From Planctomycetota bacterium (GTDB lineage: Bacteria; Planctomycetota; Phycisphaerae; Phycisphaerales; Phycisphaeraceae): a stretch of 37,905 nucleotides of DNA. Under the pieces are notes generated by a model, which had not been told where the DNA came from, ran no database searches, and was given only the letters and a program-made list of their open reading frames with translations. Location of the stretch: NCBI GenBank assembly GCA_024276075.1, contig JAJRXX010000071.1:1-37905 (forward strand), written 5' to 3'. Below, piece after piece: positions 18,978 to 22,209 of this stretch. Positions within the stretch are counted from its first letter, which is position 1; every line of letters begins with the position of its first letter. Both the position numbers and the translations under genes were made by a program.

Positions 18978-20585
18978 CTATTTCTTCTTACGAGCCGGGC
19001 CGCGTTTATGTTTGACCTTGGCGTTATTGGACCGGGTACGGGTTGATAATTTTTTTCTAGCTTCGCCGGCTTTGATCCGGTTAATCGCAGACAGATACGC
19101 ACCAGCCGCCGCCTCGATCACGTCCGTCGAGTAACCTCGGCCACGCACCTGACGATCGTTGTGATACAACTGCACCGTCGCCTCACCCTGCGCGTCCTTG
19201 CCAGCCGTCACCGCACGCGTCTGGTAATCCTTGAGCCTCACACGCACTCCCGTGATCCGCTGGATCGCCGAGTACAGCGCATCGATCGGCCCGTCACCCG
19301 TCGCCGCGTCCATGCGCTCGTGACCACTCGAATCACGCAGCACCACCATGGCCGTAGCGATCATCCCCGTGCCACTGGTCACCTGAAACCGCACCAGCTC
19401 CCACAATCGCCGCTCCGACCGGAGCTGCTGGTCGAGGATGATCTCGATGTCCTCGTCGTAGACCTCCTTCTTCTTGTCCGACAGCGCCTTAAATGCTTCG
19501 AAACCACTTTCAAGCGACGCCTTGTCCAGTTGAAATCCCAGGTGCTTCGCACGCTGGCGAAACGCGTGCCTGCCCGAATGTTTGCCCAGCACCAACTTAT
19601 TCTCCGGCAGCCCCACGTCACGCGGGTCCATAATCTCATACGTCGTCCGCTCCTTGAGCACGCCGTCCTGATGGATACCCGCTTCATGCGCAAACGCGTT
19701 ATCACCCACGATCGCCTTGTGCCGCTGCACCTGTAGCCCCGTCATCGCCGCCACCATCCGTGAGACCGGGTAGATGCGCTTCGTATTGATCTTCGTCGTG
19801 TACCGCTTGAAATAGTCCTTCCGCGTGCGCAGGGCCATGACGACTTCTTCGAGCGACGCGTTGCCCGCACGCTCACCGATACCGTTGACCGTGCACTCGA
19901 TTTGACGCGCACCGTTCTCAATCGCCGACAAGCTATTCGCCACCGCCAGCCCCAGGTCGTTGTGGCAGTGCGCCGACAGCACGATCTTCTTCTTATCCAA
20001 CACCGGCAACTGCTCGCGCAGATGGCTGAAAATGTACCCGTACTCATGAGGCACCGCGTAGCCCACCGTATCGGGCAGGTTCACCGTCGTAGCACCGGCC
20101 TCCACCACCGCAGCCGTGATGTCCACCAAGTAGTTTAGCTCCGTGCGCGATGCATCCTCTGGGCTAAACTCCACGTCATCGACGTACCCACGCGCCTGTC
20201 GAACCGACTCGACCGCCAGCTCGATGATCCTGCGGATCGGCATGCGCAGCTTGTGCGTCCGGTGGATCTTGCTCGTCGCACAGAAGACGTGTATCCGCCC
20301 GTGTGCCGCGCCCTTCAGCGCTTCACCCGCGCGGTCGATGTCACGGGGCACGCACCGCGCCAAGCCCGCAACCTTCGCGCGCGCCAGCTCGTGCGAGATC
20401 GCCCGCACCGCTTCGAAGTCGCCCTGGCTGGTGATCGGAAACCCCGCCTCGATGATATCCACGCCCAACGACTCTAGATTACGCGCGATCTCGATCTTCT
20501 CCTGGAAGTTCAGCGTCGCGCCCGGCGACTGCTCGCCGTCACGCAGCGTCGTGTCAAAAATACGGATCGGGGTCGGCCTGGCCAT
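18978..20585 (-). CDS. leuA: 2-isopropylmalate synthase
   Basis: This enzyme condenses 2-oxoisovalerate with acetyl-CoA, the first committed step of leucine synthesis. The 535-residue product has the DRE-TIM metallolyase domain: RIFDTTLRDGEQSPGA at the N-terminus and the metal-binding SAHCHNDLGLAVANS. These are followed by NGIGERAGNASLEEV, HEAGIHQDGVLK and a C-terminal domain of the type that binds leucine for feedback control (GDGPIDALYSAI). A lysine-rich tail of about 25 residues is extra. The ATG at 20585 has GAGGAG upstream and fits the family start. The 5' region carries a promoter, a leucine-rich leader peptide and a terminator (20648-20832), so transcription is probably controlled by leucine supply through attenuation. 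phoH follows 103 bases downstream. Confidence 0.96.
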   Translation of the reverse strand: MARPTPIRIFDTTLRDGEQSPGATLNFQEKIEIARNLESLGVDIIEAGFPITSQGDFEAVRAISHELARAKVAGLARCVPRDIDRAGEALKGAAHGRIHVFCATSKIHRTHKLRMPIRRIIELAVESVRQARGYVDDVEFSPEDASRTELNYLVDITAAVVEAGATTVNLPDTVGYAVPHEYGYIFSHLREQLPVLDKKKIVLSAHCHNDLGLAVANSLSAIENGARQIECTVNGIGERAGNASLEEVVMALRTRKDYFKRYTTKINTKRIYPVSRMVAAMTGLQVQRHKAIVGDNAFAHEAGIHQDGVLKERTTYEIMDPRDVGLPENKLVLGKHSGRHAFRQRAKHLGFQLDKASLESGFEAFKALSDKKKEVYDEDIEIILDQQLRSERRLWELVRFQVTSGTGMIATAMVVLRDSSGHERMDAATGDGPIDALYSAIQRITGVRVRLKDYQTRAVTAGKDAQGEATVQLYHNDRQVRGRGYSTDVIEAAAGAYLSAINRIKAGEARKKLSTRTRSNNAKVKHKRGPARKKK

Positions 20586-20647
20586 GGCTGTGCTCCTCAA
20601 GCAATTCTCTTCGCCTGCTCGTAACTACCTTCAATACACCTATAAAC

Positions 20648-20682
20648 AAAAACCCTGCCTCGATTCACGATCGGGACAGGGC
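20648..20682 (-). terminator. leuA attenuator terminator
   Basis: On the minus strand CCCTGTCCCGAT (20681-20670) pairs with ATCGAGGCAGGG (20664-20653) around a five-base loop: 11 of 12 positions pair, one of them G-U. Five T follow (20652-20648). It lies between the leader peptide stop and leuA, 62 bases before the leuA ATG. Its 5' arm can also pair with the segment GGGTAGGGC that overlaps the leader stop codon (20719-20711), giving an alternative antiterminator. Confidence 0.85.
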
Positions 20683-20713
20683 ATTCAAGATCAAGAAAAT
20701 TCGGTGATCAGCC

Positions 20714-20794
20714 CTACCCGACGCGCAGCAACCCTAGCCCTAGTAGCTCTAGGAGCAGGTCGTTACGGAGTCGGATGGTGCCTGATGTTTTCAT
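20714..20794 (-). CDS. leuL: leucine-rich leader peptide of leuA (attenuation control)
   Basis: This is a 26-codon frame, ATG 20794-20792 to TAG 20716-20714. The peptide begins MKTSGTIRLRND and then reads LLLELLGLGLLRVG. Nine of 26 residues are leucine, eight of them within residues 13-23. Four of the nine use CTA, which looks little used in the neighbouring GC-rich genes. The stop codon lies inside a segment able to pair with the 5' arm of the following terminator. This is the arrangement of enterobacterial leu, his and trp leader peptides: a ribosome stalled on leucine codons leaves the segment free to form the antiterminator, and a ribosome reaching the stop covers it. No Shine-Dalgarno site is visible. 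The promoter ends nine bases before the ATG, so the leader is probably translated as a leaderless frame. I do not know of a described leu attenuator in planctomycetes. Confidence 0.8.
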   Translation of the reverse strand: MKTSGTIRLRNDLLLELLGLGLLRVG

Positions 20795-20803
20795 AACAAA
20801 AAA

Positions 20804-20832
20804 ATACTATGACCATTCACAAGCCGCGTCAA
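20804..20832 (-). promoter_or_regulatory. sigma-70-type promoter of the leuL-leuA transcript
   Basis: On the minus strand TTGACG (20832-20827), a 17-base spacer and TAGTAT (20809-20804) are seen. The -10 ends nine bases before the leader peptide ATG, so transcription would begin only one to three bases before it. The icd promoter points the other way, with its -35 box 39 bases from this one. Confidence 0.72.
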
Positions 20833-20870: not shown

Positions 20871-20899
20871 TTGACGGGCCACACACACCCCGATATTTT
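20871..20899 (+). promoter_or_regulatory. sigma-70-type promoter of icd
   Basis: TTGACG (20871-20876), a 17-base spacer and TATTTT (20894-20899) lie about 60 bases before the icd ATG. It is back to back with the leuL promoter. Confidence 0.65.

Positions 20900-20958: not shown

Positions 20959-22209
<1,251 letters not shown>

Follow-up and report, generated by a model that had tools for sequence, protein, structure and literature searches.

The attenuator of the enterobacterial leu operon (leuL), together with those of his and trp, provides the general model for control of transcription by a translated leader peptide, and a later case has reportedly come from the Firmicutes. The closest match in design to the leader described here is the leuL2/leuS attenuator of Streptomyces: in S. 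lividans, leuL2 lies before leuS and is followed by a hairpin and uridines, and both leuL1 and leuL2 are reported to be leaderless (PMC8079986). In the actinobacterial LEU element a Leu-rich leader precedes leuA, as it does in our locus, and a pseudoknot is described whose base stem consists of the Leu codons and the leuA Shine-Dalgarno sequence (PMC1262725), and leuL1 is reported to be without a typical terminator (PMC1262725, PMC8079986). In Sinorhizobium meliloti, trpL is a transcription attenuator with its leader ORF at the 5′ end of the transcript (PMC7298713), while the ilvB-II, ilvB-OMG and Leptospira ilvB motifs have upstream ORFs rich in branched-chain residues, with a terminator in the case of ilvB-II (PMC10272879). 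A 2016 study reported that Planctomycetes have leader genes located at set distances from other genes, and leuA is absent from its main text (PMC4833913). We found no example of leader-peptide attenuation from a planctomycete in the open-licence literature, which is compatible with the novelty inferred in the original prediction, made when the sequence was first read.

The locus lies in a stretch of 37,905 nt from a member of the Planctomycetota (positions 1 to 37,905 of contig JAJRXX010000071.1), hereafter called the window, and its features are collected in Table 1. A profile match to TIGR00973 (710.6 bits, cut-off 598.7) identifies leuA as a 2-isopropylmalate synthase gene, and the minus strand from 20832 to 20585 holds a sigma-70-type promoter, a leader ORF and a hairpin with a T-run, followed by leuA. 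The original prediction had named the promoter TTGACG-17-TAGTAT, a frame of 26 codons with nine Leu, four of them CTA, and a hairpin with a T-run 62 bases before leuA, and all of these were recovered; the Leu codons are 9, 13-15, 17, 18, 20, 22 and 23 of the leader, with CTA at 15, 17, 18 and 20. The promoter is one of two promoter-like sites in 701 nt, where 0.3 would be expected, and TTGACN stands at the -35 position in most family leaders with a recognised promoter. Because the gap between the -10 hexamer and the leader ATG is only 9 nt, transcription of the leader is predicted to start within a few nt of the ATG. The divergent neighbour of leuA is an isocitrate/isopropylmalate dehydrogenase-family gene (20959-22209, plus strand), for which there is a promoter-like TTGACG-17-TATTTT at 20871-20899 of the window (plus strand), back to back with the leuA promoter.

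Table 1. Features of the leuA locus in the window, in the direction of transcription.
Feature	Coordinates	Strand	Basis or remark
-35 hexamer TTGACG	20827..20832	minus	promoter scan; 17-nt spacer to -10
-10 hexamer TAGTAT	20804..20809	minus	promoter scan
Leader ORF, 26 codons plus TAG, MKTSGTIRLRNDLLLELLGLGLLRVG	20714..20794	minus	ATG 20794, TAG 20716-20714
1:2 hairpin over the antiterminator strand, predicted when the leader is ribosome-free; tip CCTAG-AGCTA-CTAGG	about 20710..20782	minus	folding
Antiterminator strand (strand 2) GTCGGGTAGGGC, includes the leader stop codon	20711..20722	minus	alignment, covariation, stall map
Strand 3 GCCCTGTCCCGA, predicted partner of strand 2 (antiterminator) or strand 4 (terminator)	20671..20682	minus	folding, covariation
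Intrinsic terminator hairpin	20652..20682	minus	folding, covariation; stem 20682-20675 with 20659-20652
Terminator T-run, predicted end of the attenuated transcript	20648..20652	minus	sequence, alignment
Shine-Dalgarno-like GAGGAG of leuA	20597-20592	minus	upstream of ATG 20585
leuA, 2-isopropylmalate synthase	18978..20585	minus	ATG at 20585

With enterobacterial leuL the window leader shares a run of Leu codons that includes CTA, a predicted terminator and antiterminator that exclude one another, and a candidate protector hairpin. It differs in its sequence, which has no Rfam match, in its predicted leaderless start and in having the stop codon inside the antiterminator strand; moreover, the gene next after leuA is PhoH-like (PhoH/PIN-domain) and not another leu gene. 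Unlike the LEU element and leuL1, as these are described in the papers cited above, the window has a terminator and an antiterminator before leuA. The predicted start of the leader ORF at the 5′ end of the transcript recalls S. meliloti trpL, although the latter uses Trp rather than Leu and belongs to the Alphaproteobacteria (PMC7298713), whereas the ilvB-II, ilvB-OMG and Leptospira ilvB motifs, in the account given of them, belong to another gene and have another structure (PMC10272879).

The terminator hairpin has a folding energy of -18.3 kcal/mol (z -3.14), equalled by 2 of 200 shuffles, and it is absent from the output of a simple terminator scan of the window, probably because an internal mismatch breaks the stem. 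As originally proposed, the strand that overlaps the leader stop can pair with the 5′ arm of this hairpin, GGGTAGGGC (20719-20711) being the partner of GCCCTGTCCC (20682-20673). A CCTAG/CTAGG pair in the leader had been put forward as a pause hairpin; the pair is real, but it forms only the tip of the larger 1:2 hairpin (about 20782-20710). The z-score of the latter is -3.75 in the window and averages -1.79 over 38 family leaders, in which pairing of strand 2 reaches 0.70 versus 0.45 in shuffled sequences; across leaders, folding lends the 1:2 hairpin only moderate support.

How might these parts work together? The promoter spacing suggests that the transcript would begin at most a few nt from the leader ATG, with a ribosome loading at its 5′ end. 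If leucyl-tRNA were scarce, the ribosome would stall in the Leu run (codons 9-20) and open the 1:2 hairpin, whereupon strand 2 (GTCGGGTAGGGC) would pair with strand 3, the terminator would be blocked and leuA would be transcribed. If leucyl-tRNA were plentiful, the ribosome would reach the UAG inside strand 2 and mask that strand, strand 3 would pair with strand 4 and transcription would end near 20648. With no ribosome on the leader, the 1:2 hairpin would hide strand 2 and the terminator would form.

We modelled these states by equilibrium folding with an assumed ribosome footprint of 29 nt. In the model of the window leader, the ribosome-free RNA forms both the 1:2 hairpin and the terminator, a ribosome at codons 5-14 leads to the antiterminator in both treatments of the upstream RNA, and one located between codon 22 and the stop leads to the terminator. 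A ribosome at codons 15-20 gives the antiterminator only if the upstream RNA cannot re-pair around it, and all four CTA codons of the window fall within the range that needs this assumption. Folding with the leader region masked, a check suggested with the original prediction, produced the expected switch in the window but a less clean one over the 38 leaders. With the ribosome at the stop the modelled terminator averaged 0.86 over all 38 and exceeded 0.5 in 36; with the ribosome at the first Leu codon the mean probability was 0.44 for the antiterminator versus 0.41 for the terminator; and by our criterion both halves of the switch appeared in 22 leaders and failed to do so in 16. As an equilibrium model, the picture over the 38 leaders is much less clean than that of the window.

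The relatives provide evidence of another kind. LeuA-level matches (E 5e-95 or better) were found in 38 of 61 genomes, all from the family of the window (f1) or sister family f6, the remaining genomes having paralogs only, or nothing. The 19 order members in sister families f2-f5 gave no LeuA-level match, and the IlvB cut-off was passed by none of the 13 f2-f5 genomes tested, two of which had strong sub-cut-off matches; these organisms are possibly branched-chain amino-acid auxotrophs. From families f1 and f6 we used 40 leuA upstream regions, leaving out L007, which has just 44 nt of upstream sequence, and L027, in which the start of the gene is missing, and leader and terminator were alignable in 38, with 9 of the 38 stops set by hand from an earlier listing. 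A leader of the same form was not found at the other two, L032 and L039, of which L032 retains a matching terminator.

The alignment consists of a Leu-rich region, a near-invariant GGATAGG whose TAG is usually the leader stop (TAG is the stop in 32 of 38), and GCCCTGTCC...GGACAGGGT with a T-run. At least four Leu occur in the last 20 codons of 37 of the 38 aligned frames, the exception being the closest relative, L004, in which the GGGTAGGG strand is out of frame with its own Leu-rich ORF. When leaders were picked blind to residues, by stop motif and following terminator only, 31 of the 40 regions yielded a pick, and in 29 of these the frame of the stop held 4-8 Leu per 20 codons, with 0-3 in either of the remaining frames. 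The pattern failed twice: in the window the script settled on an earlier match, and in L004 the motif is not in frame with the Leu-rich ORF. This recurrence at leuA in relatives places the architecture beyond chance. CTA makes up 13.8% of Leu codons in the leaders versus 1.8% in the leuA stretches that go with them (Fisher p 1e-13, calculated on counts reconstructed from rounded fractions), and its share of 7.6% in 11 long ORFs of the window indicates that the codon is less rare in the window's genome. The best promoter has a -10 that ends 3-12 nt before an in-frame ATG in 29 of the 38 leuA leaders, where 2.2 would be expected by placement, and in eight no promoter reaches 8 of 12; from their sequences, many leuA leaders look leaderless.

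Both helices covary. In the antiterminator helix 79.7% of alignment cells are paired, versus 29.1-44.6% in slid versions, and double-changed cells number 23 versus 9.2 in shuffles (0/500), although double changes counted by base pair are a weaker signal (6 vs 4.1; 32/500); in the terminator helix 90.6% of cells are paired and 17 are double-changed versus 5.6 (0/500). The UAG within the antiterminator strand would usually form a U.G wobble, the U column facing G in 34 of the 38 leaders. In at least two loci (L024, L040) the stop codon has shifted yet the RNA strand has been kept, which argues for selection on the RNA. Automatic consensus folding of the leaders returned the terminator only, and not the antiterminator. 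The search among related Phycisphaerae for a conserved Leu-rich frame with covarying antiterminator and terminator stems, as first suggested, was thus positive. Likewise, over the 163 of 186 leuA and cimA regions that have a T-run hairpin and a stop, the native pairing of strand 2 with strand 3 averaged -15.41 kcal/mol versus -11.29 (sd 0.21) when strands were permuted between loci, and none of 2000 permutations matched it, overall or inside each of four groups. In other families the letters of the strands differ yet still match, as when TCGTAGGGA faces CCCTGCGA or CTTAGGGTT faces AACCCTGAG.

Could the hairpin simply be an intrinsic terminator, or belong to a small RNA encoded between the divergent genes, and play no part in regulation through translation? 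It is strong on its own, but a predicted promoter lies before it and leuA after it, all pointing the same way, and the antiterminator strand is conserved and covaries. Given that covariation and the strand permutation we rejected this reading, to which we assign only the slimmest probability. A leader that binds a ligand or tRNA (a riboswitch or T-box), or is bound by a protein, with the ORF incidental, would explain why blocks of sequence are conserved at the stop and the terminator, and protein binding has been proposed, in the description of the LEU element, for actinobacterial leuA leaders (PMC1262725). However, these blocks are the very strands that can pair with one another, and they change together between lineages, and the identity of the leader codons follows the downstream pathway. 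The riboswitch or T-box form was rejected because no Rfam family reached its gathering score in the window, a local Rfam search giving CrfA alone at a chance-level E of 2.5, and we regard this whole class of explanation as extremely unlikely.

The dependence of codon identity on pathway is seen at cimA, a paralog of leuA with ~30% identity that belongs to the isoleucine pathway and has the same antiterminator/terminator design with Ile codons. The paralog is a citramalate synthase according to TIGR00977 (598.6 bits in the window's genome, cut-off 450; 575-644 bits in all eight relatives' paralogs tested). When pairing and terminator were the sole guides to the choice of ORF, leuA leaders average 6.08 Leu, 0.68 Ile and 0.63 Val per 20 codons (38 of 40 regions) and cimA leaders 4.57 Ile, 1.13 Leu and 0.30 Val (30 of 37). 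At least four Ile occur in 27 of the 30 picked cimA leaders, that is in 27 of the 37 cimA regions (loci in L241-L256 and L261-L280), and promoter spacing is leaderless-like in 20 of 27. L002, the cimA locus of the window's own genome, showed no such Ile-type leader.

These Ile-rich peptides, encoded on the same RNA design before cimA, also speak against nascent-peptide arrest, in which the sequence of the leader peptide would itself stall the ribosome, sensing leucine or another molecule rather than a shortage of charged tRNA. Two points favour arrest: hydrophobic peptides can stall ribosomes, and translation of the leader would extend into the switch region. Across relatives, though, the composition of the leader is conserved while residue order and Leu positions are not, and we think arrest very improbable. 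We consider it highly likely that the leuA leader works, as originally proposed, by ribosome-mediated (leader-peptide) attenuation of transcription, and that it makes leuA responsive to charged tRNA-Leu. The evidence is computed: the parts themselves, their conservation in the alignment of relatives, the covariation of both helices and the strand permutation, the switching of the window model with stall position, and leader codons that match the pathway. We infer that the promoter is used, that the leader is translated, and that termination takes place in vivo and depends on leucine.

How far beyond the family does the element extend? At E up to 0.01, a model of the leuA leader (R1) matched 42 of the 58 leuA regions that came from other families of the class, or 44 of 60 once two training members are included; the match at L171, among the 42, spans the terminator end only. 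Of 80 named loci, 31 matched. Eleven are family members, of which 10 belong to the training set; 18 come from the 51 other loci that are unlabelled or carry the label Planctomycetota; and two weak ones come from the 18 loci with other labels (L073, Deferribacteraceae; L103, Verrucomicrobiales), which may represent real spread, misbinned contigs or chance. On inspection, weak matches at L258, L259 and L260 look like ordinary terminators of other genes and were rejected. The residue-blind pick gave at least four Leu in 34 of 47 picked regions of the class (58 examined), in 24 of 32 picked from named Planctomycetota or unlabelled loci (51 examined) and in 2 of 6 picked from other phyla (18 examined).

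In the window's genome a genome-wide model search with E up to 1 gave only three matches, the one at leuA having an E of 1e-11. A copy of the element with Leu codons lies before leuS in one genome (G017, 60.4 bits; L299:4631-4731, minus strand), and the 30 leuS loci searched, a set without the window's own leuS, gave no second strong match (best other 12.1 bits). The ilvB upstream regions (L181-L205) carry the motif TGAGCGG in 21 of 25, and their leaders are rich in Val on average, with means of 5.10 Val, 2.48 Leu and 0.90 Ile; TGAGCGG was chosen after the Val-rich ORFs had been seen, and hence these motif counts are not independent. Promoter spacing is leaderless-like in 18 of 21, a GCGGANGACCCGC-type stem-loop follows most ilvB leaders with TGAGCGG, a terminator-like hairpin precedes ilvB in only 4 of 21, and the UTRs are often C-rich; loci L185, L187, L194 and L198 have no Rfam match at gathering level. 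The ilvB leaders, without a conserved intrinsic terminator, are of another design than those of leuA and cimA, and are possibly Rho-dependent; it is on them that the ilvB-II, ilvB-OMG and Leptospira motifs, as described, bear (PMC10272879). At trpE in relatives we saw no convincing Trp-rich leader, no ORF in the 30 regions scanned having more than three Trp among its last 20 codons, a scan in which the offset was wrong for the contig-end loci L219 and L237. The suggestion that leuA is controlled alone needs refinement: the ilvB leader of the same genome (L187, G000:C33) has six Leu and four Val and relatives have an Ile version at cimA, so leuA is not the sole branched-chain gene with a leader.

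We conclude that the mechanism is a known one of which the leuA leader is very probably a well-supported new instance, and a wider one than first suggested. A broader picture is tentative, and taken as a whole we lean slightly against it: that the Planctomycetota have old, widely inherited translation-sensing leaders for branched-chain amino acids, with leaderless ORFs that read Leu (leuA, one leuS), Ile (cimA) or Val (ilvB), the stop codon being built into the antiterminator strand at leuA and cimA, where a single ancestral switch would have exchanged its Leu codons for Ile codons, or Ile for Leu, and ilvB being served by another route such as Rho. Leader-peptide attenuation would extend to a phylum for which the open-licence literature yielded no case. 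Leu codons before leuA and Ile codons before cimA, in the same RNA design and before related enzymes, amount to a natural codon swap that supports the logic of tRNA sensing without mutagenesis, and the leader codons may help to separate 2-isopropylmalate synthases from citramalate synthases.
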